This document shows, piece by piece, positions 995-17,414 of a stretch of DNA of 23,104 nucleotides. Each line of letters begins with the position of its first letter. Position 1 is the stretch's first letter. The stretch comes from a virus. The stretch spans positions 934 to 24,037 of the IMG/VR virus record IMGVR_UViG_3300000115_000194. The stretch is one strand, 5' to 3'. The notes beneath the pieces are model-generated. The model saw only the letters and a list, made by a program, of their open reading frames with translations, searched no databases and was not told the origin of the DNA. The translations under genes and the position numbers were made by a program.

Positions 995-1321
995 ATGAAA
1001 ACACTAAACCTAATAGAGAAGTATAAGACTTTAATCGAGCAGGATATTGTAGGTGAGGAGCCTATTGATGCGACTGATGTAACGGAGCAGCCGGCTTCAG
1101 TTGCACCACTTACTACTGAAGGTGAGAAGTATTTAGTTGACTTGCTTGTTAAGGCATTTTTACATGTACCTGACGAGAGTGAAGGAAAGATTGTTAAGGA
1201 GCTTCAGGCTACATTGCTTGATGAAAATCCTAAAGATGTTGCTGAGTCAATTGAGAGTATGCTTGAGTTAAGTGTTAATGATACTAAAAAGATGCTTAAT
1301 CTTACAACAGATATTAACTAA
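995..1321 (+). CDS. Unknown phage protein, 108 aa, with N-terminus resembling a capsid-targeting signal
   Basis: The frame is open from 959, but the ATG at 995, just after the upstream stop (988-990), is the likely start. The N-terminus MKTLNLIEKYKTLIEQ is amphipathic and resembles the start of T4 internal head proteins (MKTYQEFIAEA in IPIII). An acidic, Pro/Thr-containing linker follows (roughly residues 20-45), then a helical domain (roughly 45-108) rich in Leu, Glu and Lys. No catalytic motif is visible. It sits between two late-operon genes with gaps of 1-4 nt and no Shine-Dalgarno. The family is unknown to me; a head-associated or packaged protein is a speculative reading of the N-terminus and the operon. 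Confidence 0.7.
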   Translation: MKTLNLIEKYKTLIEQDIVGEEPIDATDVTEQPASVAPLTTEGEKYLVDLLVKAFLHVPDESEGKIVKELQATLLDENPKDVAESIESMLELSVNDTKKMLNLTTDIN

Positions 1322-1322
1322 T

Positions 1323-2495
1323 ATGAACTACGGTAAAAAGTCATTAGAGAATCTATATAGCGGTATTGCAGGTAAGCCTATTGCTCAGAGAAAACATTTG
1401 AGTGTATTTGGTGAGGCTCCTGATCAGCAGCAATTATTTAGACAGTTAACAGGTGGAAAGAATAAGGGTGCTGAGGTTACTATACCGACAAAAGATCAAG
1501 CTGTAGGTAAGTATGATGTTGAGGATACTAAAAAAATATCCTTAACGGATGAGGATATAGAGAATTTTAAGACACTCAATAGTGAAGATCAATTAAGAGT
1601 TAAGAAGTATATAGAGAGTACTGCGTTTAGAGGTCTTATACAGAACTCTATTAAGGGTTCAGATGATGAGGTAGAGGAGGCATTCAGACTTTTAATGAGT
1701 TCACACTTACCTGCAGATAGTATACATAGTGTAATACAAGATATCAATACTGGTAGAGCTGTTAATACAAAACTTCTCTCTACAGTGGGTAATTATACCC
1801 CCGGACAGATATTTAGTAGTGATGATGCGTGGGAGGTTTATAAAATTCTTATGCCAATTGGCGTTGGTAAGCTGCAACAAGGACCAGGTGAGGTTGCGTT
1901 TGCTATGATGTCTCCTGATGTAGACGAGTCAGTAAAAGGAGACATAAGCATTAACGGTGAGTTATTTGAGTTAAAGGTAAATGGCGGTCGAATAAGTGAT
2001 AAAGCAGGTCCGGATGCTGAAAGTATAAAGAGCATAATGAGTAAGTATTTTGATGAAAATATTATGTCATATCTCAATCGATCGAAACAATCGTTATCAC
2101 TAACTGAGTTTACTGAATGGAGTAACGGTATTAAAAGAGGTTCTGATCAAATTGACTTTGAAGGATGTGCACGTGAAATATTTTCCTCAATTTTAAGTCC
2201 AGAGTTCGCCCAACCACTAGCTAAGTTATTTGGTGAGTCACAGGTTGATCCCAAGAAGGCGGTAGAGCTATTTAAAAAGCAGAGCTTTAATTGGTATAAA
2301 AGTACAAAGACGGGTGGTGAAGGTCAGTGGAATAAGTTAATAGGTATAAACACTAAGCACTCTAAAGGTTCAATCGCAGTAATAGAAACCGGTGATCAGT
2401 TTGCTATGACACCGATGCAGGGATCTAATCCTGCAATCATAAGAACCAAGTCTGGTACTCGTGAAAATTATATAGAATTTAAACCTATTAAGTAA
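1323..2495 (+). CDS. Putative PD-(D/E)XK nuclease-like phage protein, 390 aa
   Basis: The frame is open from 1272, but the ATG at 1323 follows the upstream stop by 1 nt and is the likely start. Residues 187-218 look like a PD-(D/E)XK active site: E190 in GPGE, then GD at 206-207, then E-L-K at 216-218 on a predicted second strand (spacing D-x8-E-x-K). The flanking NGGRI is typical of the loop after the lysine. The flanking regions (about 1-180 and 240-390) are helical and unknown to me. In known members these residues bind Mg and cut DNA or RNA. Here the match is by motif only; no activity or family name is certain. The gene lies two nt upstream of a ligase-fold-like gene in the same late-type operon. 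Confidence 0.7.
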   Translation: MNYGKKSLENLYSGIAGKPIAQRKHLSVFGEAPDQQQLFRQLTGGKNKGAEVTIPTKDQAVGKYDVEDTKKISLTDEDIENFKTLNSEDQLRVKKYIESTAFRGLIQNSIKGSDDEVEEAFRLLMSSHLPADSIHSVIQDINTGRAVNTKLLSTVGNYTPGQIFSSDDAWEVYKILMPIGVGKLQQGPGEVAFAMMSPDVDESVKGDISINGELFELKVNGGRISDKAGPDAESIKSIMSKYFDENIMSYLNRSKQSLSLTEFTEWSNGIKRGSDQIDFEGCAREIFSSILSPEFAQPLAKLFGESQVDPKKAVELFKKQSFNWYKSTKTGGEGQWNKLIGINTKHSKGSIAVIETGDQFAMTPMQGSNPAIIRTKSGTRENYIEFKPIK

Positions 2496-2497
2496 AC

Positions 2498-3703
2498 ATG
2501 AATAACTTTAAACAATATTATGAGGCGTATAGTCTCCTAGAAGAAAAGGCAGCAAACACTCACCTTACTCACTTGGAAGAGTTAGTTCTCACGAAGGGTA
2601 AGGATGGTTATGCAACAGCTAGAGGATTTCTGACTGACTTATTGTCACATTTACAAGGTAAGAGTAAAAGAAAGATTGGTACTACTGTTAAATGGGATGG
2701 TGCACCAGCAATCTTCTGCGGTATTCACCCTGAGACTAAAAGATTCTTTGTAGGTACTAAATCAATCTTTAATAGAGAGCCAAAAATTAACTATGATGAT
2801 CAAGATGTTGAGATCAATCACGGGCATGCTCCTGGTTTAGCTGATAAGCTTAAAAAAGCACTTAAGCACCTTCCAAAGCTTGGTATTAGAAACATTATGC
2901 AGGGTGACTTTATGTTCGATTCATCAACAATCCAGAAAGAGGAGATTGATGGTGTTCCGCATTACACCTTTATGCCTAACACCATTAAGTATGCTGTTGA
3001 AGTTGACAGTAAGCTTGGTAAGGAGCTGGCAAACTCAGTCTTTGGTATTATTTTTCACACTGAATATAGTGATCTAAATAGTAGTGCATCATTTGGTGCT
3101 AAAGTTAATAATCTTAAAAAGGCACCTGGTGTATGGTTCGATGATGCATTCTTTAAGGATGATACTGGTATCGTTACATTAGCTACTGACGAAGCAAAGC
3201 AAGTTAAAGATTATATTAAGACAGCTGACTCAATTAAAGTTAACTACAAAAATATTCCTTCTGATCTTCTTAACATCTATATTAACACAGAGATTCGTGA
3301 AGGTAAGTTCCTTGAGAATCCGGAAGAGTCTTACAACAACCTTATCACATGGTTTAAGTCTAGAATGGCTAAAGAGATTGACAAGAGAAAGAGTAAGAGA
3401 GGTAAGCAGAGTATTGAGGAGAGCTTCAAGATGAAGTTAGCTAACATTGAAAAGGAACAAGGCAATATTATCAACCTGTTTAAGGTTTCAAGACTACTTT
3501 CACAAGCAAAGCAGATGTTTATTAACAAATATAACTCAGCTGTTTATACAACAAAGCACTTTGTTGATAATGGTGATGGTACACTTAAGGTAACAGCACC
3601 TGAGGGCTATGTAGCCGTTTCAAGAGACGGTGGTGCAGTTAAATTAGTAGATAGACTCGAGTTTAGTAGAGCTAACTTTGCAAAAGATAAGCCAGGATCA
3701 TGA
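2498..3703 (+). CDS. Ligase-fold-like phage protein (KxDG motif; DUF6267-type), 401 aa
   Basis: The sequence resembles a conserved family of T4-like marine phages that I associate with DUF6267. I see the motif set of covalent nucleotidyltransferases (DNA/RNA ligases and capping enzymes). Motif I is K65-W-D-G68, where K65 would carry AMP or GMP. A motif III-like QGDFMFD lies at 135-141, with D137 where ligases have Glu. A IIIa-like VFGIIFH is at 181-187, motif IV-like E369-G-Y-V, and motif V-like VKLVDR (K382). About 150 residues of Lys-rich helical sequence separate IIIa from IV, more than in simple ligases. The N-terminus MNNFKQYYE followed by LLEE is capsid-targeting-like. The gene overlaps the next one by ATGA. 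The fold call is inference from motifs; the substrate is unknown. Confidence 0.75.
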   Translation: MNNFKQYYEAYSLLEEKAANTHLTHLEELVLTKGKDGYATARGFLTDLLSHLQGKSKRKIGTTVKWDGAPAIFCGIHPETKRFFVGTKSIFNREPKINYDDQDVEINHGHAPGLADKLKKALKHLPKLGIRNIMQGDFMFDSSTIQKEEIDGVPHYTFMPNTIKYAVEVDSKLGKELANSVFGIIFHTEYSDLNSSASFGAKVNNLKKAPGVWFDDAFFKDDTGIVTLATDEAKQVKDYIKTADSIKVNYKNIPSDLLNIYINTEIREGKFLENPEESYNNLITWFKSRMAKEIDKRKSKRGKQSIEESFKMKLANIEKEQGNIINLFKVSRLLSQAKQMFINKYNSAVYTTKHFVDNGDGTLKVTAPEGYVAVSRDGGAVKLVDRLEFSRANFAKDKPGS

Positions 3704-4242
3704 TTACATTTAAGGAATATTTTGAAGGTGAGGAAACTCACGAAACAGTAGCCCTACTACCTGGTGGATATAAACCACCTACCAAAGGACACTTTAATGC
3801 ATTTAAATATATACTTCAGGATGCAGATAAGGGTGTAGTTCTTATTGGTAACAAGGACAGAGATGGTATTACTGCTGATCAGGCAAGAGACATTTGGGAA
3901 GTTTACGCCAAGTATCTAGGTAAGCCTATTGAAGTAGCTATTGCAGGTGTTACACCAGTTAGATCAGTATATGAATTTGCTGATGCAAACAAGGATGTTA
4001 AGATTATTGTTGGTGCTGGTGATAAGGATGAAGATGTAAAGCGTTATTCATACTTTGAAAAAAATATTGAAAAGTATCCATTAGTTCAGGTAGTTAAAAT
4101 ACCAATGCAGTCAGAAGGTATATCAGGTACACAAACACGTGCTATGATTGCTGATGATATTGATACAGCTGTCGATCACTTTACACCGGAAGAAATTAAC
4201 CAGACTGATAAAGATATTATAAAATCTATATTAGGAGTATAA
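3700..4242 (+). CDS. Cytidylyltransferase-like (HxGH-type) nucleotidyltransferase, 180 aa
   Basis: This is an HxGH-type nucleotidyltransferase, the superfamily of NMN and phosphopantetheine adenylyltransferases. The nucleotide-binding loop PGGYKPPTKGHFNAF is at about 21-35, with T28-x-G-H31 in place of HxGH. The second signature ISGTQTR is at 141-147 (compare ISSTxxR). GAGDKDED at 105-112 fits the loop before it. The length is right for NadM-type enzymes. The reaction would be transfer of AMP or CMP from NTP to a phosphorylated acceptor; the acceptor cannot be read from the sequence. The N-terminus MITFKEYFE, ahead of the catalytic core, is shared with neighbours and looks like a capsid-targeting signal. 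The start overlaps the upstream stop (ATGA), so translation is probably coupled to the ligase-like gene. Confidence 0.85.
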   Translation: MITFKEYFEGEETHETVALLPGGYKPPTKGHFNAFKYILQDADKGVVLIGNKDRDGITADQARDIWEVYAKYLGKPIEVAIAGVTPVRSVYEFADANKDVKIIVGAGDKDEDVKRYSYFEKNIEKYPLVQVVKIPMQSEGISGTQTRAMIADDIDTAVDHFTPEEINQTDKDIIKSILGV

Positions 4243-4245
4243 ATA
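4238..4245 (+). promoter_or_regulatory. T4-type late promoter (TATAAATA)
   Basis: This is a perfect match to the T4 late consensus TATAAATA, overlapping the stop codon of the upstream gene. With T4 spacing +1 is 4251, exactly the A of the ATG. The string ATAAATAACTATATG recurs identically on the minus strand at 13534-13520, before a fibre-type gene. Confidence 0.85.
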
Positions 4246-4250
4246 ACTAT

Positions 4251-4685
4251 ATGAGAAATAATCCTAAACTAGATCTTATTGCAGAAGCCTACATGGATAG
4301 TGTAGCTCCGCAAGCAGTGGTTGTTGATGTACAGTCACAAGAAGGTGGATGTGTAGATGCTGCTCAAGGTTGTCATTGTGGTGGTTGCCCTGAATGCTCT
4401 AACGTAGAGAGTGGGCAACGAGAAGAGCATGACCCTACTGAGATTAAGATGGCCCTTGCAGAGCTTAGGAAAGCTAAAGAGTACGCTGGTAAATTAGAGG
4501 AGATGTTACAATCAGCTCACGGTCTTGAGGGTTGGACAGCAGCGAAGATTACTAAAGCGTCTGATTACCTCTCATCTGTTTATCATTGGTTGGAGTTTGA
4601 GACAGAAGCTGGTGATTGTCATGACAGTCAATTTAATATGGGTTATGAAGATGGTGAAATTAATCAGTTTGAGGATGGTGAATGA
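4251..4685 (+). CDS. Cys-rich phage protein with conserved helical tail, 144 aa
   Basis: Residues 34-49 hold five cysteines plus a histidine (C34, C41-H-C43, C46, C49), a compact likely zinc-binding knuckle. An acidic helical part follows. Residues about 94-118 (AAKITKASDYLSSVYHWLE) match a short helical segment that I recall at the C-termini of many unannotated T4-like marine phage proteins, function unknown. The N-terminus contains DLIAE-A, an I-x-E/A sequence fitting the T4 gp21 prohead-protease cleavage rule at residue 12. The gene has its own late promoter and predicted leaderless start. A structural or packaged role is inference. Confidence 0.75.
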   Translation: MRNNPKLDLIAEAYMDSVAPQAVVVDVQSQEGGCVDAAQGCHCGGCPECSNVESGQREEHDPTEIKMALAELRKAKEYAGKLEEMLQSAHGLEGWTAAKITKASDYLSSVYHWLEFETEAGDCHDSQFNMGYEDGEINQFEDGE

Positions 4686-4695
4686 CCAAACAAAA

Positions 4696-4703
4696 AATAA
4701 ATA
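4696..4703 (+). promoter_or_regulatory. Weak late-promoter-like box (AATAAATA)
   Basis: The box has A instead of T or C at the first position. Its predicted +1 (about 4709) would leave a 7-nt leader before the ATG at 4716. It may be chance in such AT-rich sequence. Confidence 0.35.
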
Positions 4704-4715
4704 GCAGTTTGCTAT

Positions 4716-5156
4716 ATGAAAAAATTTAAACAATATTTTGAAGAAAAGACTGTATTAGGTCTCATTGAGTTTTTCCACATTGATGGTGTGGGTAAAGTTG
4801 CAGCTAAACTTGACTCGGGTAATGGAGCTTTTAACGTACTCCATGGAGAGGATATTCAACTACAAGGTGATAAGGTGTTCTTCAGGACTGTAAATGGTAG
4901 AACGCTTATCAAGGATAAGAAGGATACAATTACAATCAACGTTGGTGCTGGTAATACAGAGGATAGACCAGTTGTTGAGTTTGATATGAGGGTAGGTGAT
5001 AGAGAGTTTAAGGGAGTACCCTTTTCAATAGGTAACAGGTCATCAAATATCTTTAAGATACTAGTAGGTAAAGAGTTTATTGAGCAAGAGCTTGATGCTC
5101 TTATTGATGTTGGTCAAGAAAACATCGCCGGTTCTAATGTTGAAGCAGAGCTCTGA
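4716..5156 (+). CDS. RimB/PF05618-like retropepsin-type protease, 146 aa
   Basis: Residues about 14-125 resemble the single-domain retropepsin-like family once called ATP-dependent zinc proteases (PF05618), which in bacteria is coupled to RimK/LysX-type ligases (RimB in the RimK system). The catalytic D-T/S-G is visible as KLDSGNGAFNVLH (D33-S34-G35). The second half carries RPVVEFDMRVG and the family's closing pattern NRSSNIFKILVGKEF (107-121), corresponding to dR..m.ypvLlGR.fl. Such enzymes act as dimers with one Asp from each subunit. An N-terminal MKKFKQYFEE precedes the domain and matches its operon neighbours. The last 43 nt overlap the convergent minus-strand gene. An inactive relative cannot be excluded. 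Confidence 0.7.
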   Translation: MKKFKQYFEEKTVLGLIEFFHIDGVGKVAAKLDSGNGAFNVLHGEDIQLQGDKVFFRTVNGRTLIKDKKDTITINVGAGNTEDRPVVEFDMRVGDREFKGVPFSIGNRSSNIFKILVGKEFIEQELDALIDVGQENIAGSNVEAEL

Positions 5157-5892: not shown

Positions 5893-6576
5893 TTAGCTAC
5901 TATGTCTATCGTACATATCTACAAACTTATAAAATTCATTACGAGTCTTATCATCCGCCATAAAATCACCGGTAAGCTTACTAGTAATCATTGCACATCC
6001 GTGATGTTTAACACCTCTATTACATGCACAGCTATGCTGAGCTCTTATAACAACAGCCACACCCCTGTTACCCTCACAAATTTTATCAATTGCTTGTGTA
6101 ATTTGAGTTGTCATACCCTCTTGGATTTGTGGACGTCTTGCATAATAATCAACAATACGATTAAGCTTTGATAATCCAACAACCTTACCATCCTCAGATG
6201 GAATATATGCTACGTGAGCTACACCTGTAAATGCCATATGGTGATGAGAGCACAAGCTAACAACAGGAATTCCTGTCTGAGCTACAATACCATCATAACC
6301 ATCACTAGGGAATGCTGTTACCTTAGGTGGTAAATTATAACATCCGGATGCAATATCATTAACAAATGCTTTTGCTACACGCATAGGTGTATTATCGGAG
6401 TTAGGATCATTACGCCAATCAAAGCCTAACGCGTCTAAATATTTCTCGTATGCTGCAGCTGCATTATTAATAATGTTCTGCTTTTCTTCTTCTGTCTTAG
6501 GATGGCTACTACTAGCAGTAGGTAGTTTAGTGGATGTACCACGTTCTACGTGGGTGTCTTTGTTTTGATTTTCCAT
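5893..6576 (-). CDS. folE: GTP cyclohydrolase I
   Basis: The enzyme converts GTP to 7,8-dihydroneopterin triphosphate, the first step of both folate and 7-deazaguanine (preQ0) synthesis. The catalytic core is complete. Zinc ligands are C109 and H112 in [10 protein letters not shown] and C183 in [31 protein letters not shown] (134-153) is the conserved core signature, and TPMRVAKAF (63-71) fits the N-terminal region. The length (227 aa) is normal; the first ~28 residues are a polar, Ser/Thr-rich extension. In this window it pairs with queD and queE, which points to preQ0-type chemistry rather than folate. It is the first gene of a three-gene minus-strand operon with a sigma70-type promoter and a near-leaderless start. 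Confidence 0.95.
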
Positions 6577-6584
6577 ATATACAT

Positions 6585-6612
6585 ATAATAACCTATAAAA
6601 TGGTTATATCAA
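6585..6612 (-). promoter_or_regulatory. Sigma70-type promoter of folE
   Basis: On the minus strand, -35 TTGATA (6612-6607), a 16-nt spacer and -10 TATTAT (6590-6585). Predicted +1 is near 6578, giving a leader of about 2 nt before the folE ATG at 6576. The 16-nt spacer matches the other early-type promoters here. Confidence 0.7.
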
Positions 6613-6613
6613 G

Positions 6614-6621
6614 ACTAAATA
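6614..6621 (+). promoter_or_regulatory. Weak late-promoter-like box (ACTAAATA)
   Basis: It deviates from TATAAATA at the first two positions, but lies 1 nt from the folE -35 on the other strand and just before the ATGs at 6622 and 6631. With T4 spacing +1 would be 6627, which would favour the second ATG at 6631. Confidence 0.4.
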
Positions 6622-7341
6622 ATGAAGTATATGAAAAGATTGTCTCAACGAGAGTTAATAGAAGAGGGTTTTGCTGATCTTGCGATGGCCGCGGCAAAGG
6701 GCGCAGCAAAGTATATAGCTCCAACTGCATATGGAGCTATTAAGACTGTAAAAGATACAATACAAAACTCTTTTGGCGGTCCAAAAAAATATATTGAGAG
6801 TTGGAAGAGTACGTTTTCTAATGTAATATCAGATATACAAGGTATAAATGTTGTAAATAAAGGTAAAAGAGGTGCACCTCTTTGGAAGGTTAGTTTTCAG
6901 ATGGAGCTAAGGGATCCTTTTACACATGATCCTGTTGATACATGGATACCTGTAAATGGTTTAGTTATTAAGGAGACGGGTGATAAACAGGGTAACAAAC
7001 AATTTAGTTTGATTAGTGATAGTAAAGATATAGATGTAATAATGATGGATCTAATCAAAAATAACAAGGACATGGAGGAGGCACTAAAGGATTTTGATAA
7101 AAAGGTGTTAGCTAGATTATCACAAGAGGGTGACGTCAATAATAGTACAGAAGATAAAAGTACAGAAGATAAGCCTCAACCCACTCCACCGCCTTTACCA
7201 GAAAAACCAAAAGAATCTCCTAAACAAAGGATAGTAGGTAAAAGTCGTTCTGGCTCAAACAGAAAACAGAGGTCAGAAAATGAAGAGGTAAATTTAAATC
7301 AAAAAAGTTTGCTGAAACACTTGCAATCGATGTCTCGCTAG
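6622..7341 (+). CDS. Unknown phage protein, 239 aa, basic/Pro-rich C-terminus
   Basis: Two ATGs are possible (6622 and 6631, three codons apart). The N-terminus RLSQRELIEE-GFADLAMAAAKGAAKYIAP carries an I-E-E/G sequence matching T4 gp21 prohead cleavage, followed by a small-residue-rich helix. Residues about 40-165 form a mixed domain (FGGPKKYIESWKSTFSNVI, then beta-rich WKVSFQMELRDPF) with no motif I know. From about 175 the sequence is low complexity: a repeated STEDK, a PTPPPLPEKP stretch, then Arg/Lys/Ser-rich. It stands alone between the folE operon and queD, and a hairpin follows its stop. A late virion protein is possible; function unknown. Confidence 0.75.
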   Translation: MKYMKRLSQRELIEEGFADLAMAAAKGAAKYIAPTAYGAIKTVKDTIQNSFGGPKKYIESWKSTFSNVISDIQGINVVNKGKRGAPLWKVSFQMELRDPFTHDPVDTWIPVNGLVIKETGDKQGNKQFSLISDSKDIDVIMMDLIKNNKDMEEALKDFDKKVLARLSQEGDVNNSTEDKSTEDKPQPTPPPLPEKPKESPKQRIVGKSRSGSNRKQRSENEEVNLNQKSLLKHLQSMSR

Positions 7342-7370
7342 AATAAATGGACTATAGGGACGGGAGAGAA

Positions 7371-7404
7371 AGACCTAAATACTGATCTCTATAGGTCTGG
7401 GTTT
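7371..7404 (+). terminator. Probable Rho-independent terminator
   Basis: AGACCTA (7371-7377) and TAGGTCT (7392-7398) form a perfect 7-bp stem around a 14-nt loop, followed by GG-GTTTT (7399-7404). The stem has only three G-C pairs and the T run is short, so it is a modest terminator. It sits 30 nt past the stop of the upstream gene, in the longest gene-free stretch of the window (7342-7469). Confidence 0.5.
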
Positions 7405-7435
7405 TATAATATTATTTAAAGTTATAATTTTACAG

Positions 7436-7463
7436 TTGATTAAAGTACTTTTGTGGTTATAAT
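7436..7463 (+). promoter_or_regulatory. Sigma70-type promoter of queD
   Basis: -35 TTGATT (7436-7441), 16-nt spacer, -10 TATAAT (7458-7463). Seven nt past the -10 gives +1 at 7470, the A of the queD ATG: a predicted leaderless transcript. Confidence 0.8.
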
Positions 7464-7469
7464 GATTAC

Positions 7470-8147
7470 ATGAGTAAATATCAATCTACAAAGGTGGTCG
7501 AATTAGGCTCGTGTGCTTTTAGACAGTGGCGAGCAACACATAGTCATTGTCAATACTTACACGGCTATCAACTTAAAGCTAAATTATGGTTTGGTTGCAA
7601 TGAACTAGATGAGAGAAACTGGTGTGTAGACTTCGGAGGTCTTAAAGAACTAAAAGATCATCTAAAAGATACATTTGATCACACAACTACCGTAGCGTAT
7701 GATGATCCAGAGCTAGCGACATTTAAAGAGCTTAATGAAAAAGGACTTATACAATTAAGAGTATTTGCAAAGGGTGTAGGTATTGAAAGAGTTGCGGAGG
7801 AAGTTTATAACTTAGCAAATGACTTTATAAAGTATCATACAAAGGATAGGTGTTGGGTAGAAAAGGTTGAAGTATTTGAACATGAAGATAACTCTGCCAC
7901 CTTTAGTAACTGCATTGATGAATTTAGTGTAATGGTTAACGACACTCAAACAGAAGCTGAACCGTCAATTGAAGAGTTATCAACAGCTACCCAAGCACTT
8001 GAGCAAGTACAGGTAAATACATCTAAACCTAAGGTGGTAAAGGCTGAAGATGTACCTAAAAAGAAGCCTTCTAAAGGTCTGCCCGACTTACCGGGTAATA
8101 GTACTAAAACAAAAGGTAATTGGTTTAAAGGTACAACGTGGGGCTAG
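7470..8147 (+). CDS. queD: 6-carboxy-tetrahydropterin synthase-like (QueD/PTPS family)
   Basis: QueD turns dihydroneopterin triphosphate, the FolE product, into 6-carboxy-tetrahydropterin on the way to preQ0. Family features: THSHCQYLHGYQLKAKLWF (23-41), with C27 at the usual nucleophile position and H31; CVDFGGLKELKDHL with DH before TTTV (the DFgdLK...DH motif); and VEKVEVFEHEDNSATF near 130-145 (the catalytic Glu region). The usual HGH is HGY (Y33), and the first zinc His of FxAAH has no clear equivalent, although H24 and H26 are close by. The last ~70 residues are a polar, Lys/Pro-rich extension ending NWFKGTTWG. The 3' end overlaps convergent phoH by 4 nt. Confidence 0.85.
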   Translation: MSKYQSTKVVELGSCAFRQWRATHSHCQYLHGYQLKAKLWFGCNELDERNWCVDFGGLKELKDHLKDTFDHTTTVAYDDPELATFKELNEKGLIQLRVFAKGVGIERVAEEVYNLANDFIKYHTKDRCWVEKVEVFEHEDNSATFSNCIDEFSVMVNDTQTEAEPSIEELSTATQALEQVQVNTSKPKVVKAEDVPKKKPSKGLPDLPGNSTKTKGNWFKGTTWG

Positions 8148-8872
8148 GTATCCAACATCTTACATATGTGACGTAAGATCTTTGATCTTGCAATTTCACT
8201 ATTACCAAATTCGAATGCGAAGATATTATTGTCTTCGCATTCTTGGTTATCGAACCTCTCTAAAACCTCATCAAAGCCAGACTTATTAATGTCAGATTGA
8301 TTACCATCACCACAAATAATATATTTACTATCTCTACCAAATCTAGTTAGAATCGTAGTTAACTCACCCTTTGTAAGATTTTGAGCTTCATCAACAATAA
8401 CGATAGATTTATTAAATGTAAGGCCTCTTACAAAGTTTACAGGTATAGCCTCAATAATCCCTTTATGCATAAGCATCTGCGACGTCGACACGCTGGTAAT
8501 TTCTCTAACCTTTTCAATAAGTGGTGCTGCATAAGGTGAGAACTTATCATCTACTTCACCTGGTAGAGCTCCTAATGATTTTTCAGCTGATTCGGCTACT
8601 GATCTAATATAAATAAGCTTTTCAACCACCTCATCACGTATCTGTTCTAGAGCAGTATAGACAGCAATATACGTCTTCATAGAACCGGCTGGTCCATCAA
8701 CGAATACCATATTCGTATCCTTATCTCTACACTTAAAATAGAATTCTTTCTGTAATTTATTAAAATAGAATGGCTTTCGAATATTAAAATTCAGTAACCA
8801 GTTGTTATTAAATGACTCTTCAAGATCAATATCATCAATCTCCCGACGCTTACGCGAAGTTTTTTTACTCAT
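8144..8872 (-). CDS. phoH: PhoH-like P-loop ATPase
   Basis: This is a PhoH-family ATPase, common in marine phages and of debated role (phosphate stress or RNA metabolism). Walker A is GPAGSMKT (60-67), a variant of GPAGTGKT that keeps the Lys and Thr. Walker B is IVIVDEAQNL (157-166, DEAQ). GALPGEVDDKFSPYAAPL (101-118) and the CGDGNQSD sensor-like segment are classic for the family. The first ~35 residues are a basic and acidic extension. The length (242 aa) is typical. It is a single minus-strand gene between queD and queE with a late-type box 7 nt upstream, so it may be expressed late, unlike its early-type neighbours. Confidence 0.93.
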   Translation of the reverse strand: MSKKTSRKRREIDDIDLEESFNNNWLLNFNIRKPFYFNKLQKEFYFKCRDKDTNMVFVDGPAGSMKTYIAVYTALEQIRDEVVEKLIYIRSVAESAEKSLGALPGEVDDKFSPYAAPLIEKVREITSVSTSQMLMHKGIIEAIPVNFVRGLTFNKSIVIVDEAQNLTKGELTTILTRFGRDSKYIICGDGNQSDINKSGFDEVLERFDNQECEDNNIFAFEFGNSEIARSKILRHICKMLDT

Positions 8873-8878
8873 TAACAG

Positions 8879-8886
8879 TATTTATG
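8879..8886 (-). promoter_or_regulatory. T4-type late promoter of phoH (CATAAATA)
   Basis: On the minus strand CATAAATA runs from 8886 to 8879. T4 spacing puts +1 at 8873, one nt before the phoH ATG (8872). It directly abuts the queE -35 on the plus strand. Confidence 0.65.
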
Positions 8887-8914
8887 TTGATATATAAAAA
8901 TTGCATGTTATAAT
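8887..8914 (+). promoter_or_regulatory. Sigma70-type promoter of queE
   Basis: -35 TTGATA (8887-8892), 16-nt spacer, -10 TATAAT (8909-8914). Predicted +1 is 8921, one nt before the ATG at 8922. Its presence argues against a start at the in-frame TTG at 8901, which lies inside the promoter. Confidence 0.8.
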
Positions 8915-8921
8915 ATTAAAT

Positions 8922-9692
8922 ATGATAGATTGTGATAAAGAGTATCTACTAATGGCAGGTGAGAATGGTGTACCAGAGTTATTTTATACCGTTGAAGGTG
9001 AAGGTGAATATGTAGGTCAACCTTCTGTCTTTCTTAGGTTGTTCGGATGTAACCTAACGTGTAAAGGTTTTATATCAGAAGATGCACCTCATGGATGTGA
9101 TTCGTTTATATCATGGTCTAAGAAGAATAAGGTATCGTTTAATGGTATGTTTAAGTTACTTGAGGATGGAAATTGTATTGAGCACTTACGTGAAGGTGCT
9201 ATTTTTAAGTATACCGGTGGTGAACCGATGGTAAGACAGAAGCAGTTAATGAAGTTTACTGATGCATTTATTGAGAAGTATGACTTTTTGCCTCGTATTG
9301 ATTTTGAGACTAATGCTACAATGCAACCTGAAGAAGATTGGGTAACTAAGTACAAGGCTACATTCACTACCTCACCAAAGCTAACTACTAATGGTGATCC
9401 TGAAGAGAAGACTTATAAACCTGAAGTACTAAAGTGGCATAAAGATCATAACTCTGGGTTTAAATTTGTTATAACGCAATCAGAAGATATTGAAGAGATA
9501 TGGCGTAAGTATATAAAAGATACTAACGGTATTAATATTCCTTTAAATCGTGTTTGGTTTATGCCCTGTGCAGGTTCCCGTGAAGAGCATATTAGAAATG
9601 CTGAGGCTGTAGCAGAATATGCTAAAGCAATGCATGTTAACTTCTCTCCTAGACTTCACCTACTACTTTGGGATATGGCATTACGCGTGTAG
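8922..9692 (+). CDS. queE: 7-carboxy-7-deazaguanine synthase (radical SAM)
   Basis: QueE converts 6-carboxy-tetrahydropterin to 7-carboxy-7-deazaguanine, the step after QueD. The N-terminus has the family opening FYTVEGEGEYVGQPSVFLR (21-39). The cluster loop follows as C43-x3-C47-K-G-F50, with the next cysteine at C59 in GCDS, so the motif reads CX3CX11C rather than CX3CX2C; C59-D60 fits the CD(T/S) that ends the usual motif. SAM-binding KYTGGEPM and the closing SPRLHLLLWD are intact. The length (256 aa) is slightly above bacterial QueE. The ATG at 8922 is chosen because the upstream TTG lies in the promoter. preQ0 would still need QueC, which is not in this window. Confidence 0.9.
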   Translation: MIDCDKEYLLMAGENGVPELFYTVEGEGEYVGQPSVFLRLFGCNLTCKGFISEDAPHGCDSFISWSKKNKVSFNGMFKLLEDGNCIEHLREGAIFKYTGGEPMVRQKQLMKFTDAFIEKYDFLPRIDFETNATMQPEEDWVTKYKATFTTSPKLTTNGDPEEKTYKPEVLKWHKDHNSGFKFVITQSEDIEEIWRKYIKDTNGINIPLNRVWFMPCAGSREEHIRNAEAVAEYAKAMHVNFSPRLHLLLWDMALRV

Positions 9693-9727: not shown

Positions 9728-10471
9728 ATGAGAATTGCAATATGTGGAGCAGCAAACACCGGTAAGACAACACTAGTACAGGGGTTTCTTAAGAAATGGA
9801 AAACATACAGTACGCCGAAAAATACATATAGGGATCTTATTAAAGAGGGTGCATTAGACCACTCTACCAGTACAACGACAGAAAATCAAACCAAAATACT
9901 TGCAAGTTTAATTAAGCAGCAAGAGCAGTTTAAGAGGTTAGATGAAAAGATTATACATGATAGATGTACATTAGATGCCTTAGCTTATACTATGTGGTGC
10001 TACGGTAAGAATAAAGATGGTTTTGATACTACATATGTAGAGACACAAATTGAACAAGTTAAAGAGTCAATGAGATCCTTAGATATTATATTTTTAGCTA
10101 AGTTTGACAAGTCACAAGTACCAGAAGATAACGGAGTTCGTGAAACTGACGTAGAATATATTACAGAAATAGATAATATATATGAATCTTTATATCAGCA
10201 ATATAAACAAAATGCCGCGGCCGATGTATTCTTTCCAAAAGATGATACACCACTTATATTACCACTACCACATAACGAGCAAGCGCGTATTAGTATGATT
10301 GCTGATTATATAACACCTGAGGGTGAGATGTATGGTGAAGAAAACTCTATACTTAACCCTGAAAATATCGGAGAGCTTGAACATCTAGTACAGCAACAGC
10401 AACTGGAGCGTGAGGCAGAAGAAGCTGAAAAAAAGCTACTCGAAAAGGTTAATAAAGAGTTAAATTTATAA
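9728..10471 (+). CDS. P-loop ATPase/kinase (NadR-kinase/AAA_28-like), 247 aa
   Basis: Walker A is CGAANTGKTTL (6-16). H77-D78-R79 in IIHDRCTLDALAY, roughly 65 residues on, fits the DR(C) motif of small-molecule kinases such as NadR's ribosylnicotinamide kinase domain and thymidylate kinases. LDIIFLAKFD (about 119-128) is a hydrophobic strand before the lid region. From ~215 the tail is Gln/Glu/Lys-rich and probably coiled coil. The substrate (nucleoside, nucleotide or nicotinamide riboside) cannot be read from motifs. It follows queE by 35 nt, but with its own late-type box. The 3' end overlaps the convergent fibre gene by 6 nt. Confidence 0.8.
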   Translation: MRIAICGAANTGKTTLVQGFLKKWKTYSTPKNTYRDLIKEGALDHSTSTTTENQTKILASLIKQQEQFKRLDEKIIHDRCTLDALAYTMWCYGKNKDGFDTTYVETQIEQVKESMRSLDIIFLAKFDKSQVPEDNGVRETDVEYITEIDNIYESLYQQYKQNAAADVFFPKDDTPLILPLPHNEQARISMIADYITPEGEMYGEENSILNPENIGELEHLVQQQQLEREAEEAEKKLLEKVNKELNL

Positions 10472-12817
10472 GTTCTTATATAACAGGACGTTGTTATTAC
10501 CAGGTGCAGCTGCAGCTATGTATGTGCCATCTATACTTAGATCAACAGGGCCAAGTTGGCTCTGTTTTGATTTAGTTATAAGTTCCGTTTTATTAACAAA
10601 TGGGTAATTAAATACACATATTCGACCCGTGCCTTCGTCAGTTGTAGTTAATCTTTCCCCGACAGCAACCCTCGTACCGTCTGCGCTTATAGATACTTGA
10701 TCTATACCGCCTTTACTGCCGTTTGCCGGTGTGTATATACCTACTTCACTCCAGCTACTACCATTCCAACTATAAGCTCGAGCGGTACCGTCTCCATTGT
10801 TCTCTTTAGAGGATGCTATAATCATTTTATCCCCTGTACTATTAATACACACATCAGACCCGTAGCCACTTCCCACGCTACCAGTTTGTCTAAATACTTC
10901 TTCCCATCTATTATTATCTTCTGACCATTTAAAAGCACATACACTCCCATCACCGGTTCCACCGCCTATAATAATCATATTATTGCTTATACATACAGCG
11001 CTTCCAAAGCCATAACCGACGTTAGAGTTGTTTATACTACCGTAAATCTGCTTATCGTATTCTATATCTACGAGGTTATTAAGATCACCGGTTAGAGCAG
11101 AGACATAACTCTTGTTTTCCTCTATTATACCATCAATCAACCTACCAGTTGCAACACTATATTTACCGACAGAACCGTAAGAACGTGTATCCGTCGGACG
11201 GCTACCTACGGCAATGTATTCCTCGTTACCATCTAAATATACAGATGTTCCAAACCGGTTACCATATTTGAGCTCTTTTGTGAAATTAAACATGTCACCT
11301 GACCTCGTATAAATAGACGCTCTATTTGAACCGGCCATTCCGATCACCAATTTATTTTTTCTCATCGATATATCAGTGATAGGGCTACCGACCTCAATAA
11401 ATCCTACCTCAACCAGACTCGAACTGTCTGATACCTTAAATAAACTAACCTCATATGGACTCTCACGTGTAGCTACAGCTGCAATTAGATCTCCTATATC
11501 GGTAATAGCTATACTATTTCGCCAGTTCAGTTTACCAGCAGTTTTATTAACACCCTTCGCAAGAGGATATAAATCAATATCACGTACAGGATCTGACGGT
11601 CCTACGTTAGCCGTTATATTATTAACGCCGGTTATATTATTATATGTACCACTACCTGTCGAACCACCACTTGACGATAGAGTAGCTATCGAGCCATTTG
11701 CATTAATTTGCGTAACAGTAACTGTTACATCATTTGCCGGTGAGCTACCACCTAAATTATCACCACTAATAGTAATTTTATCACCGGAACTATAACCCGT
11801 TCCGCCTGTACTAGCGGCTACCGTATAATCTCCATTAGCCGCTGTTATATCAAAAGCAGATCCGGATCCACTACTACCGGAGTCGTTTGCTACTACTTCT
11901 TCTCCAAATATAGAATATAATCTTATTTCAAAAATATCCGAATTTACAACATTACTATTTAATATTAAATTACCGGTAGTATCTGCTGTATGATTATAAC
12001 TTATAGTTATTGTACCGTTAGATTTATTAACATTATAGCTAAAATCTAATATATCTAACAACTGCTCATTATCTAAATCACCATTAACCACTAGACTACT
12101 AAATAAAGCCTCTTCTACCCTAACAATATCAACAATATAATCCTCTTTACTATTTAACTCCACCCCGCTAATGGTAACAGTTATACTATCAACAGCCTTA
12201 CCTAAGGCTTTAGGTGTAGGTGTTAGTATAATTTGGTTATTAACTACCTCAACATATACACCTAAGGACTGTGGATTAAGATCACCTGACTTCCAGTCTC
12301 TTTCTGGGGCTAGCTCCGTAACATTAAGGTAGTTTTCTGAAGTACGGGTTTCGTTAATTACATACTTATCTGTCGATCTAAATACACTAGTTAACTCACC
12401 TACCTTTATCTCTTCAACAATACTCAAACTCTCAATAACGCCTAAACCATCTGGATTTACAACACTATAAACATCATCGATCATTGTCTGATACGCACTA
12501 GCAGATAGTAAGAGAGACGTTACACTATTTAACTGCGTAATCTCGTCGTTTAAATATTGCTTAATATTATTAGATGTGTTCAATATACTACCACCATTTG
12601 ACATCATACTACAAAGCTGATTTGTAGCGGTAGTATGATATAAGAACTCTTCTTCAAATAAAGCATTCTCAATATTCAGATTAAAATCTTCAAAAGTAAT
12701 AGTCTTTGTTCCTTCTGTAACAGACTCAATAACAAACCTATCCGATAAATCTACATTAATAACTTCCGGTAGGTTTTTTATAAAGGAAATACGTGATACT
12801 TCATCTTCACATGACAT
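10466..12817 (-). CDS. Probable fibre/appendage protein with beta-propeller C-terminus, 783 aa
   Basis: This is a large, beta-rich, Ser/Thr/Gly/Asn-rich protein with almost no Cys, typical of phage fibres. Residues 1-75 (MSCEDE...LPEVINVDLSDRFVIES...FEEEF) are paralogous to the two genes upstream and probably form a virion-attachment module. A helical segment follows to ~110, then beta domains. About 310-400 is a Gly/Ser-rich module (GGTGYSSGDKITISG, PANDVTVTVT) of a kind seen in marine T4-like structural proteins. From ~414 to the end are repeated blades (FGSAVCISNNMIIIGGG, YGSDVCINSTGDKMIIAS, DQVSISADGTRVAVGE) fitting an FG-GAP/WD-like beta-propeller, a plausible receptor-binding head. It is the last gene of its operon, with its own late promoter and predicted leaderless start. 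Confidence 0.85.
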   Translation of the reverse strand: MSCEDEVSRISFIKNLPEVINVDLSDRFVIESVTEGTKTITFEDFNLNIENALFEEEFLYHTTATNQLCSMMSNGGSILNTSNNIKQYLNDEITQLNSVTSLLLSASAYQTMIDDVYSVVNPDGLGVIESLSIVEEIKVGELTSVFRSTDKYVINETRTSENYLNVTELAPERDWKSGDLNPQSLGVYVEVVNNQIILTPTPKALGKAVDSITVTISGVELNSKEDYIVDIVRVEEALFSSLVVNGDLDNEQLLDILDFSYNVNKSNGTITISYNHTADTTGNLILNSNVVNSDIFEIRLYSIFGEEVVANDSGSSGSGSAFDITAANGDYTVAASTGGTGYSSGDKITISGDNLGGSSPANDVTVTVTQINANGSIATLSSSGGSTGSGTYNNITGVNNITANVGPSDPVRDIDLYPLAKGVNKTAGKLNWRNSIAITDIGDLIAAVATRESPYEVSLFKVSDSSSLVEVGFIEVGSPITDISMRKNKLVIGMAGSNRASIYTRSGDMFNFTKELKYGNRFGTSVYLDGNEEYIAVGSRPTDTRSYGSVGKYSVATGRLIDGIIEENKSYVSALTGDLNNLVDIEYDKQIYGSINNSNVGYGFGSAVCISNNMIIIGGGTGDGSVCAFKWSEDNNRWEEVFRQTGSVGSGYGSDVCINSTGDKMIIASSKENNGDGTARAYSWNGSSWSEVGIYTPANGSKGGIDQVSISADGTRVAVGERLTTTDEGTGRICVFNYPFVNKTELITKSKQSQLGPVDLSIDGTYIAAAAPGNNNVLLYKNL

Positions 12818-12822
12818 ATACT

Positions 12823-12830
12823 TATTTATG
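12823..12830 (-). promoter_or_regulatory. T4-type late promoter (CATAAATA)
   Basis: On the minus strand CATAAATA spans 12830-12823, overlapping the stop codon of the upstream paralogue (TAA at 12828-12826). T4 spacing places +1 at 12817, exactly the A of the ATG. Confidence 0.75.
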
Positions 12831-13146
12831 CAGGTACACTTACTTCATCAAGTAATTTAGTTAAATTACTAGATAACGCAGCAATTTCAGATACTTTTTC
12901 TGATGTAAAGGTATCAAGATCATCAAGTATATTATCAAGTGCAGACGATAAACCAATTATATCTGTCGTCTGCTTATTAAACTCCTCTTCAAAAGCCATT
13001 TGTTCTATATCAAAAATAATATTATCAAAACAAACAGTATTAACACCTAATGTACCATCAATAATAAAAAAATCTAATGGTTCAATATTATATGTTTCGG
13101 GTAACTGGTTTATATTACCTAATTTAGTACGTGATTTACAGGGCAT
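12826..13146 (-). CDS. Short paralogue of the fibre N-terminal module, 106 aa
   Basis: The pattern MPC...KL....LPETYNI...D.FIID......FDNIIFDIEQMAFEEEF aligns along its first ~70 residues with both neighbours. The rest (about 70-106) is a single predicted helix (SALDNILDDLDTF..), so this is essentially the attachment module plus a short coiled coil, with no receptor-binding domain. It begins 4 nt after the upstream stop and has no late box of its own, so it is probably read from the promoter at 13528-13535. It could be a collar or whisker-like adaptor, or a trimmer fibre; its role is unknown. Confidence 0.75.
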   Translation of the reverse strand: MPCKSRTKLGNINQLPETYNIEPLDFFIIDGTLGVNTVCFDNIIFDIEQMAFEEEFNKQTTDIIGLSSALDNILDDLDTFTSEKVSEIAALSSNLTKLLDEVSVPA

Positions 13147-13150
13147 AACT

Positions 13151-13522
13151 TTAGAGTATTGAGCTATAACGCTCTTTTAGGGTTACATACGTATTACTAA
13201 GACTTTCAACAATCGAAGAGAGTTGTGTCTGCAGAGAATTAATATATACAAGTCCTTCACCAGCTTCACGCTGAAAATCGTCGTACTTTTGAGTAAAATT
13301 CTTTTCCGCAGCCTTGTTTACTATTTCAGTTATATCTGTAGAGTGCTTTCTAAAAATATCACTAAAGGTTGTTTGCTCTATATCAAAAATAAAATTTTTA
13401 TAATCTACAACATATGGACCATCTAGAGTATCAATAATAAATTTATCACCTACGTTTAAGTTAACTACACTCGGTAACTCTTGAGTATTATATACTAACT
13501 TATTTTGTCCAACGCATGGCAT
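13151..13522 (-). CDS. Short paralogue of the fibre N-terminal module, 123 aa, first gene of operon
   Basis: MPCVGQNKLV..., then ELPSVVNLNVGDKFIIDT and FIFDIEQTTFSDIF, repeat the module found in the next two genes. Residues ~70-123 are helical and probably coiled coil (EGLVYINSLQTQLSSIVESL). It starts the three-gene minus-strand fibre operon behind a late promoter and is predicted to be leaderless. Its divergent neighbour is the first glycosyltransferase of the glycan operon. The tandem triplication with decay or loss of the distal domain suggests gene duplication within a receptor-binding locus. Confidence 0.75.
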   Translation of the reverse strand: MPCVGQNKLVYNTQELPSVVNLNVGDKFIIDTLDGPYVVDYKNFIFDIEQTTFSDIFRKHSTDITEIVNKAAEKNFTQKYDDFQREAGEGLVYINSLQTQLSSIVESLSNTYVTLKERYSSIL

Positions 13523-13527
13523 ATAGT

Positions 13528-13535
13528 TATTTATG
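13528..13535 (-). promoter_or_regulatory. T4-type late promoter (CATAAATA)
   Basis: On the minus strand CATAAATAACTATATG runs from 13535 to the start codon. T4 spacing puts +1 at 13522, exactly the A of the ATG. It abuts the plus-strand early-type -35 with no gap. Confidence 0.8.
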
Positions 13536-13562
13536 TTGCAATTGCAAATTTACAGCTATAAT
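13536..13562 (+). promoter_or_regulatory. Probable sigma70-type promoter of the glycan operon
   Basis: -35 TTGCAA (13536-13541), a 15-nt spacer and -10 TATAAT (13557-13562) give +1 near 13569, about 4 nt before the ATG at 13573. A second overlapping pair, TTGCAA (13542-13547) and TATAGT (13563-13568), is also possible. The spacers are shorter than in the other early-type promoters here. Confidence 0.5.
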
Positions 13563-13572
13563 TATAGTATAT

Positions 13573-14421
13573 ATGAATGATCAAATAGGCATATGTATAT
13601 CAACATGTGATAGACCTGAATATCTCAAAAAATGTATCAACTCTCTAAAAGGTGTGGATGCAGTGGTTTGTATATGTGATGATGGTCATAAAAAGGTTGA
13701 TGATTTTATACCATCCAATATTAATATTCTAAGGACAAAGAAACCACGAAGTGGTGTGGCTATTAATAAAAATATGGGGTTTAGACATCTTTTAGATAAA
13801 GGATGTGATTATATCTTTATGATAGAAGATGATTGTATAATCAAGGATCATATATTGTTTTCAAAATATATAGAGGCGAGTAAAATAACTGGTATACAAC
13901 ACTTTAACTTTGGCCCGGGTTCTCCATGGAATAGAAAACAAGATAATAAATCACTAAAGGGCGATTTATCTAAGAGGATGGATGCAAAGCAGGATGGTGA
14001 ACCGGTACCACGTATGGTGATTGAGTATGATGAGTCTGGTGAGACAGTATTATGTCTTTATGAACACGTAGTAGGCATGTTATCCTTTTTTACGCGTAAA
14101 GGTCTAGAGGAGGTTGGACTATATGACGAAGATTTTTATAACGCGTGGGAGCATGTAGAGCATACGTATAGATTTATTCAAAAGGATATGACAACGCCTT
14201 TTTGGTGGTTTGCTGATATAAAGGATAGTGAAAAATATATTGAAGGTCAACAGGATGAAAAGGCTAATACAAGCTTAGCTAAAAATGAAAATGAGTTTAA
14301 TAAGTTAGTACATGATGGTTTGAGGGTGTTTAGATCCAAGCATAACATCGTACCAGGTGAAATAAAATCTGCATCAAAAACGGAGGTAGTAAATAACATA
14401 CAAAAAATTAAGCCATTATGA
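13573..14421 (+). CDS. GT-A family glycosyltransferase, 282 aa
   Basis: The frame is open from 13516, but that region holds the divergent promoters; the ATG at 13573 gives a normal GT2 N-terminus. IGICISTCDRPEYLKKCINSL (5-25) is the family-2 nucleotide-sugar start. The metal-binding acidic motif is I84-E-D86-D87-C within YIFMIEDDC. A later NAWEHVEHTYR resembles the catalytic ED..f segment. The donor and acceptor are unknown. It is the first gene of a six-gene plus-strand operon that includes UDP-galactopyranose mutase, suggesting the operon builds a glycan on the virion or host surface. It overlaps the next gene by ATGA. Confidence 0.85.
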   Translation: MNDQIGICISTCDRPEYLKKCINSLKGVDAVVCICDDGHKKVDDFIPSNINILRTKKPRSGVAINKNMGFRHLLDKGCDYIFMIEDDCIIKDHILFSKYIEASKITGIQHFNFGPGSPWNRKQDNKSLKGDLSKRMDAKQDGEPVPRMVIEYDESGETVLCLYEHVVGMLSFFTRKGLEEVGLYDEDFYNAWEHVEHTYRFIQKDMTTPFWWFADIKDSEKYIEGQQDEKANTSLAKNENEFNKLVHDGLRVFRSKHNIVPGEIKSASKTEVVNNIQKIKPL

Positions 14422-15083
14422 AGAATATAGATGTAGTTATTTTATCAAACACTGCTAATATGGAGTATTATAAAATGCTCAAGCAGTGTATTACGAGTAT
14501 TAAGAGCAATACAGATGTTAATACTAATATTATTTTAGTTGAGACAAACAAAGAGTTAAAGGGTAAGGATCTTAAACTACCAATAGATACAATTTATATA
14601 CCAGAAGAAGAAGAATTTAATTATAATAAGTTCCTAAATTATGGGCTACAGTTTTGCAAAAATGACTTTATATGTATAACTAATAATGATGTAATATATG
14701 AATCAAACACACTAAAAGTTTTAGTTGATAGTCTAGATAAATATGACTCAGTCAGTCCATGGGATAATAGAGACTCGTGGAAGTTTCATAAAGAGCGTAA
14801 AACATATGAAGGATATAGAACGACAATACATCTTACAGGTTGGTGTATTGTAACAACTAAAGAGACGCTTAAGAATATAGGGGGATCATTTGATGAGAGA
14901 TTTGAATTTTGGTATCAGGATGATGATTATTCTAGATTATTACAACAAAATAATCTAACTCATGCTCTAATTGGTGATGTATCTGTATACCATCTCGGTC
15001 AGCAGAGTCATAAATTGTTTGAAGATGTAAATAAAAAGACTCAGGGTATGAGTGAAGTTTTTATAAGTAAATGGAAATCTTAA
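14418..15083 (+). CDS. GT2-type glycosyltransferase, 221 aa
   Basis: DVVILSNTANMEYYKMLKQCITSI at the N-terminus is the family-2 (rhamnosyl- or galactofuranosyl-type) opening. ICITNNDVIY (85-94) carries the metal-binding N-N-D in place of DxD. Further on, LTGWCIVTTKETLKNIGGSFDERFEFWYQDDDY is the acceptor/catalytic W..DD.DY region, and VYHLGQQS its usual closing His. It is shorter than its neighbour and may consist of the catalytic domain only. Coupled by ATGA to the upstream glycosyltransferase. With UDP-galactopyranose mutase immediately downstream, a galactofuranosyltransferase is a reasonable guess, not shown by the sequence. Confidence 0.82.
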   Translation: MKNIDVVILSNTANMEYYKMLKQCITSIKSNTDVNTNIILVETNKELKGKDLKLPIDTIYIPEEEEFNYNKFLNYGLQFCKNDFICITNNDVIYESNTLKVLVDSLDKYDSVSPWDNRDSWKFHKERKTYEGYRTTIHLTGWCIVTTKETLKNIGGSFDERFEFWYQDDDYSRLLQQNNLTHALIGDVSVYHLGQQSHKLFEDVNKKTQGMSEVFISKWKS

Positions 15084-15087
15084 AAAT

Positions 15088-15104
15088 AAAATAATTATTA
15101 TTTT
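15088..15104 (+). repeat. Perfect 7-bp inverted repeat, all A/T
   Basis: AAAATAA and TTATTTT flank a 3-nt loop in the 32-nt gap between the glycosyltransferase and the mutase gene. It has no G-C pair, so it is weak as a terminator. A poor -10 (TATACG, 15104-15109) follows at leaderless spacing from the ATG at 15116. Confidence 0.35.
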
Positions 15105-15115
15105 ATACGAAAATA

Positions 15116-16857: not shown

Positions 16858-16859
16858 TT

Positions 16860-17411: not shown

Positions 17412-17414
17412 CTT

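Follow-up and report, generated by a model that had tools for sequence, protein, structure and literature searches.

Capsid-targeting sequences and the operon under study

In bacteriophage T4, the internal proteins IPI, IPII and IPIII share a short N-terminal peptide (MKTYQEFIAE/A, the slash marking the cleavage site). The first 10 residues of IPIII are enough for packaging; in this capsid-targeting sequence (CTS), residues 4 and 7 set targeting and residues 8 and 10 processing, and an Asp at position 10 blocks processing while targeting is still possible (PMC9026906). The presence of one shared leader on unrelated internal proteins of T-even phages is already established (PMC9026906; PMC12373910 and work cited there). 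Here, a start of this kind is described in an operon of enzyme genes lying in a window of 23.1 kb (23,104 nucleotides), part of the 24,037-bp IMG/VR virus record IMGVR_UViG_3300000115_000194. Three of its genes, named below by their positions 2498, 3700 and 4716, encode a DUF6267 protein, an NMNAT-like enzyme and a retropepsin-like protease. Their shared N-terminus is very probably a T4-type capsid-targeting sequence, by which the enzymes would be packaged and then delivered to the new host.

As in IPI, IPII and IPIII, the tag is an N-terminal peptide of about 10 residues, hydrophobic or aromatic at positions 4 and 7 and hydrophobic at position 8 (PMC9026906, PMC12373910), several unrelated bodies stand behind it, and a gp21-type protease is encoded by the phage, here in relatives of the window. 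Unlike these small restriction inhibitors, the cargo of the window consists of enzymes; besides, residue 10 is often not Glu, the variant F-K-x-Y-F-E and longer LxE leaders are found, and the phages are marine. T4 Alt is a head-packaged and injected ADP-ribosyltransferase (ART), and a PARP/KptA-like protein is found among the tagged cargo elsewhere (L260); Alt differs by its other start and by processing at both ends, and the window operon is without an ART. Head-packaged NAD/ADP-ribose enzymes were also proposed earlier, as injected polyvalent effectors of similar classes (ART, Nudix, NAD-related), but gene context or a fusion with head proteins served to recognize these, whereas the window enzymes are recognized by a short transferable N-terminal tag (PMC9503650). 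The cyanophages S-CREM2, S-SCSM1, S-SZBM1 and S-SM1 show the tag in the same register as the window and an NMNAT-type protein in their virions; in S-SZBM1 and S-SM1 the genes for DUF6267 and NMNAT are neighbors, as they are here. In the available parts of their virion studies, the enzymes are not tied to a targeting sequence and two of the studies leave contamination open. The ejection proteins of phiKZ and SPN3US have propeptides cut by gp175/gp245, the prohead protease being homologous to gp21. Their cleavage motifs differ from the window type and their propeptides are longer than the window leaders.

A literature search on capsid targeting and cyanophages found the T4 review alone (PMC9026906), and no paper mentioning DUF6267 was found in the collection searched. 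To judge by these searches, the novelty lies in the use of enzymes as cargo, in a residue 10 that is often other than Glu, in the spread of the tag among marine T4-like phages known from uncultured sources, and in its connection with cyanophage enzymes detected in virions.

One N-terminal tag on three unrelated enzymes

The tagged genes and their predicted capsid-targeting tags are the following:

2498 to 2527, plus strand: tag MNNFKQYYEA of the DUF6267 protein (F4 in 19/19 and aromatic residues 7 and 8 in 19/19 distinct relatives)
2498 to 3703, plus strand: DUF6267 protein with KxDG (KWDGAP), EGYVAV and VKLVDR motifs (Pfam DUF6267, E 1.4e-97)
3700 to 3729, plus strand: tag MITFKEYFEG (F4, aromatic residue 7 and F8 in 10/10 distinct sequences at this slot; residue 10 mostly D or G)
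3700 to 4242, plus strand: NMNAT/cytidylyltransferase-like enzyme with PTKGH and ISGTQTR motifs (PHROG cytidyltransferase, E 1e-4; weak NCBIfam and Pfam matches)
4716 to 4745, plus strand: tag MKKFKQYFEE/K (F4, aromatic residue 7 and F8 in 12/12, E10 in 11/12 distinct relatives)
4716 to 5156, plus strand: RimB/RloA-type retropepsin-like aspartic protease with a DSG motif (alignment to PDB 9g58; NCBIfam RloA3)

These consecutive tagged genes all start with M-x-x-F4-x-x-[YF]7-[YF]8. A previous reading of the window made from sequence only had quoted these three starts together with those of genes 995 (MKTLNLIEKYKTLIEQ), 4251 (...LDLIAEAY) and 6622 (...RELIEEG), and all of them are indeed present. 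It had also considered the downstream domains as unrelated, in line with the bodies found here, i.e., DUF6267, CTP_transf/NMNAT-like and RimB/RloA-type retropepsin. Conservation was assessed on 41 distinct DNA sequences over the three slots (19 DUF6267, 10 NMNAT and 12 retropepsin). Residue 4 was F and residues 7 and 8 were aromatic in 41/41 of them, while several codons of these residues varied synonymously and much of the remaining tag changed. Residue 10 depended on the family: E in 11/12 retropepsins, D, G, S, Q or E at the NMNAT slot, and A, D, H, S, N, L or T in DUF6267. The (L/I)xE cleavage proposed in the first reading therefore fits 4716 only loosely (FEE/K), and does not fit residue 10 of 3700 (G10, D10 in relatives) or of 2498 (A10).

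The operon is also found in a near-complete relative of the window phage (G001; 196,877 bp, 240 proteins), at 134.7-142.2 kb, and the same genome carries gp21-type protease, gp22-like and gp23-like genes at 170.7-174 kb. In this genome, the motif [FY][KR]x[FY][FYLIM] stood exactly at residue 4 in 4/240 proteins vs. about 0.1 expected from the internal motif background of 0.4 per 1000 residues. The four bearers are the DUF6267 protein, the NMNAT, the retropepsin and a 513-aa PcfJ-domain protein. The plain [LI]xE motif showed a non-significant enrichment at N-termini (1.0-1.2 fold); the longer motifs alone were enriched, and N-termini of the LxEAY type were enriched about 10-fold in this genome. 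A gp21-type S77 protease was found in 6/10 window relatives, including the near-complete one, and in 13/19 large tag-bearing contigs, the count being made in tag-bearing contigs only and many of the remainder being fragments. A Pfam S77 search of the window record gave no match because this record is a 24-kb fragment.

The operon's late promoters had been cited as fitting virion proteins. The sequence TATAAATA with at most one mismatch was found 113 times vs. 102 expected in the window, i.e., at chance level in spite of one exact site at 4238, and it was not enriched upstream of the genes of the near-complete relative. Hence, this argument was dropped.

Properties of the tagged enzymes

The "ligase-like" character first given to 2498 stands at the level of motifs. 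In DUF6267, K65-W-D-G, E369-G, V372 and K382 are invariant in 27 sequences and correspond to ligase motifs I (KxDG), IV (EGxV) and V (VK). The AlphaFold2 model of 2498 is of middling quality (predicted local distance difference test score of 75, residues 1-23 below 50) and Foldseek found nothing significant with it in the PDB; a profile search against the PDB and an hhalign comparison with the KFDG ligase-NMNAT family described below gave no match. Because these fold and profile searches were negative, the protein is described as ligase/nucleotidyltransferase-like from its motifs. A possible alternative cleavage site, LLEE, lies at residues 14-17 of 2498, and the DUF6267 protein of contig L138 has a canonical cleavable tag (MKSFQTFLNE/A), its Pfam domain starting from residue 13.

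The assignment of 3700 as a nucleotidyltransferase was borne out by its (H/T)xGH and ISxTxxR motifs, with weak hidden Markov model matches (E 1e-4 to 0.03). TKGH is invariant in the family, and ISGTQTR or ISGSxTR is found in most members (MRGSTVR in L094 and L020). The retropepsin assignment of 4716 agrees with its RimB/RloA homology and D-(S/T)-G motif: it aligned with PDB 9g58 over two stretches (E 1.4e-7), matched NCBIfam RloA (E 3e-7) and shows an invariant D33-S-G. As the part homologous to bacterial RimB starts directly behind the tag, from residue 10/11 on, a cut after E10 would free the bare protease domain. PADLOC gave no matches on the cargo proteins.

The tag is modular across uncultured marine phages

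The pattern MKxFK[QE][YF]FE, scanned exactly against the DNA of IMG/VR, matched 76 times in 74 stretches. Not fewer than 69 matches lie at the N-termini of open reading frames (ORFs), in about 20 families, while the codon-reversed pattern gave 3 stretches. The families include a fusion of a KFDG ligase-like protein with NMNAT (20 members), retropepsins (15), nuclease-like proteins, the PARP/KptA-like ADP-ribosyltransferase, Nudix, HAD-like and other proteins. A second codon scan with MKxF..F[LF]xEA gave, among the 80 matches listed, at least 78 at or near ORF starts; among these listed matches, 52 are nucleotidyltransferases and the remainder belong to about 16 unrelated families. At the NMNAT slot, close relatives retain the tag and swap the cargo, which is an unrelated protein in L009 and a cyanophage-type nucleotidyltransferase in L010 and L013. 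In a second clade, NMNAT and DUF6267 form a single chain with one N-terminal start of the ...ILSE/S type.

The ligase-NMNAT fusion is illustrated by L240 (4442-6040), a tagged protein of 533 aa with a KFDG ligase-like domain and a C-terminal NMNAT-like domain. It parallels the DUF6267-NMNAT fusions of the second clade and suggests a functional ligase-NMNAT pair.

Tagged enzymes in cyanophage virions

Tagged cyanophage enzymes were detected by mass spectrometry (MS) in purified virions (PMC10665884, PMC9602691, PMC3037559, PMC9146016), and these published data support the tag independently. Three published virion proteomes (S-CREM2, S-SCSM1 and S-SZBM1) were compared with the annotated genomes. 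In S-CREM2, the motif F..F[LM].E was found within the first 30 residues in 4/4 virion-detected annotated non-lysis enzymes vs. 2/181 other proteins (Fisher P 3e-7), and one of these two other bearers is itself virion-detected (PMC10665884 Table 3). The enzymes include a S-adenosylmethionine (SAM) hydrolase (MKDFDSFLEE), an APH-like kinase (MKRFDAFLTEE) and a cytidylyltransferase (MKNFSSFLTEA). Counting S-CREM2, four cyanophages have a tagged cytidylyltransferase/NMNAT that was detected in their virions, the other starts being MKKFSAFLNEA in S-SM1, MKSFLQFLKEA in S-SCSM1 and MRFRQFIIEA in S-SZBM1. With a strict position rule, the three proteomes gave 8 N-terminal matches in about 608 proteins vs. 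an internal-Met rate of 0.0008.

The fourth of these S-CREM2 enzymes, a Cas9-like virion protein (OR473000 7704-10313, L106), shows RFASFMAEA at residues 18-26, which hints that this nuclease is delivered by the head.

Packaging and delivery compared with other explanations

The suggestion that these starts are packaging tags is well supported by the T4 register at positions 4 and 7, by the modularity of tag and cargo, by the gp21-type protease of relatives and by the MS detection of tagged cyanophage enzymes, and the best reading is that a T4-type capsid-targeting code serves enzyme cargo across marine T4-like phages. Under this reading, the first 10 or so residues, with their aromatic positions 4 and 7 and hydrophobic position 8, would dock the enzymes, late in infection, onto the gp22-like scaffold core of the prohead, so that DUF6267, the NMNAT-like enzyme and the retropepsin would be enclosed in it. 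With Glu10 (4716) or an (L/I/F/M)xE site after the tag (1320, 4251, 6622 and probably 2498; the neighboring genes are described below), gp21 would clip the tag and free the enzyme. With Asp, Gly or Ala at residue 10 (3700), the tag would probably be retained, as in the T4 Asp10 mutants. The enzymes would then exit together with the DNA and be active in the new host ahead of any phage gene expression. Their most likely functions would be the repair or attack of nucleotides/NAD and of nucleic acids, and counter-defence.

Several observations weigh against packaging and delivery. The aromatic residues at 4, 7 and 8 (41/41) match the targeting half of the T4 sequence, whereas its processing half is matched in 4716 only, the strict (L/I)xE site being missing at residue 10 of 2498 and 3700. 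Relatives without the tag exist, namely the DUF6267 proteins of L043 and L049, the fusions of L070-L075 and the DUF6267 protein SZBM1_141 of S-SZBM1, which was not detected in virions either. Pooled over the three proteomes, the strict rule separates virion from non-virion proteins with a Fisher P of just 0.012 (5/127 vs. 3/481), and the strictly tagged proteins SCSM1_30, SZBM1_191 and SZBM1_192, small though they are, were unseen by MS; two of these three are an apparent orthologous pair with near-identical starts. The annotated start of the Cas9-like protein of S-CREM2 places the core motif at residues 19-25. The core motif of the S-CREM2 test was picked partly post hoc, after T4 and the first matches. 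Besides, MS of purified particles may include co-purified proteins, as pointed out by the S-CREM2 authors (PMC10665884). Finally, for the window phage we infer packaging from homologues and proteins sharing the tag, and its processing sites and injection are likewise putative.

Other explanations of the shared start were weighed against these data. It is unlikely that the tags target the prohead while the enzymes have their task within the head, during its assembly or once it is full, in DNA packaging, repair or trimming of head proteins, rather than in the next host. Proteins of the nuclease-like, ligase-like and protease kinds could all have a part in head maturation, and T4 IPIII also affects head assembly (PMC9026906), but the cargo is highly variable and swapped among close relatives, unlike assembly factors, and those T4 internal proteins whose role is known (Alt, IPI-III) exert it in the new host (PMC9026906, PMC12373910). 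Docking elsewhere than the head, for instance at the host membrane or in a complex that DUF6267, NMNAT and the protease would form together, seems very improbable. The three tagged genes do lie close together and DUF6267 and NMNAT can be fused in one chain; however, one tag suffices in the fusions, about 20 unrelated families bear the identical tag, a close variant occurs on virion-detected proteins, and the tag has the register of the T4 CTS. As for an artefact, whether by chance, by one gene start having been duplicated recently or by a constraint that translation initiation sets on the nucleotides, it can hardly be credited. The first codons of the three genes are indeed rich in A, yet F4 and the aromatic residues 7 and 8 stay while third codon positions vary, so that the translation-initiation and nucleotide explanation was rejected on the 41 sequences; moreover, the reversed pattern is rare (3 vs. 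74) and more than 90% of the exact matches listed stand at ORF starts.

Beyond the window, it appears on balance probable that one transferable N-terminal capsid-targeting code is common to marine T4-superfamily phages and plugs into many interchangeable families of enzymes, numbering dozens (nucleases, ligase-NMNAT fusions, ADP-ribosyltransferase-like proteins, Nudix, HAD, kinases, Cas9-like nuclease and retropepsins). The head would thus deliver a custom kit at time zero, and the injected proteome could be read from the genome. Since head cargo is difficult to assay, little is known of the proteins that phages inject beside their DNA. If the packaging reading is true, a searchable, short and position-specific tag would allow injected effectors to be predicted in thousands of marine phages that have not been cultured. 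It would explain why NMNAT, kinase, SAM hydrolase and Cas9-like nuclease recur in the virion proteomes of cyanophages, and would point to roles in counter-defence or host takeover from the very start of infection. In the laboratory, the tags might double as packaging signals for cargo delivery.

Neighboring genes with candidate leaders

Four further genes of the region bear candidate leaders:

995 to 1039, plus strand: candidate propeptide MKTLNLIEKYKTLIE/Q of the 995 protein, with LIE sites at residues 8 and 15
995 to 1321, plus strand: small acidic 995 protein (ORF)
1323 to 1415, plus strand: 31-aa leader MNYGKKSLENLYSGIAGKPIAQRKHLSVFGE/A of gene 1320, ending FGE/A
1323 to 2495, plus strand: gene 1320, hypervariable PD-(D/E)XK-like nuclease body (GPGEVA...KGDISINGELFELKVNGGR; motifs, weak fold match)
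4251 to 4286, plus strand: candidate propeptide MRNNPKLDLIAE/AY (LxEAY-type start, enriched in the near-complete relative; parallel in S-SCSM1_89)
4251 to 4685, plus strand: small cysteine-containing protein (ORF)
6622 to 6663, plus strand: candidate propeptide MKYMKRLSQRELIE/EG (same start in L006, RELIEDG, and in the near-complete relative, KKLLEEG)
6622 to 7341, plus strand: basic/proline-rich protein, candidate internal head protein (ORF)

Gene 1320, which has its ATG at 1323 and was overlooked in the first reading, looks like a fast-evolving PD-(D/E)XK nuclease. In 17 relatives, the leaders (28-31 aa, ending [LFM]xE) share a mean identity of 62% in 124 pairs vs. 22% for the bodies, and the homology breaks right after [LFM]xE, the putative gp21 site. 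The GPGE/GD/ExK motifs are invariant in six closer relatives, and the best fold match is the restriction enzyme HinP1I, with a weak E of 0.04. Because the body evolves too fast, a peptide pattern recovered one relative in IMG/VR, the others being located as upstream neighbors of DUF6267. A related nuclease body stands behind another tag, MKTFKQYFEE, in L280 (hhalign probability 91), where the window clade has an LGE leader.

The 995 protein had no Pfam or PHROG match; its MKTLxLIExYxxLLEQD-like start is kept in 15 relatives and followed by a variable acidic linker, and it is possibly a head/core protein. The start of 4251 is paralleled by S-SCSM1_89, a virion protein, which starts MDSKTFNSLSEAY. 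In another marine phage clade, four tandem small genes of L049 (1217-2521) start nearly identically with MKLLLENWR(K/Q/G)xx(L/I/M)xE in front of unrelated bodies and form a second type of packaging-leader array. A GNAT acetyltransferase-like protein stands behind a start resembling these leaders in L060.

Other features of the window

GTP cyclohydrolase I-like, QueD-like and QueE-like genes lie near a PhoH-like gene at 5893-9692, which suggests a 7-deazaguanine (preQ0-type) pathway, possibly for DNA modification. On the minus strand, three consecutive genes at 10466-13522 share an N-terminal module (..FIID...TVxYKNFIFDIEQ..F.E.F.KHxTDI) and their products are probably paralogs with a structural or fibre-attachment role. 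A cluster of glycosyltransferase-like, UDP-galactopyranose mutase-like and methyltransferase-like genes (13516-18047) sits between the portal gene and the tagged operon.

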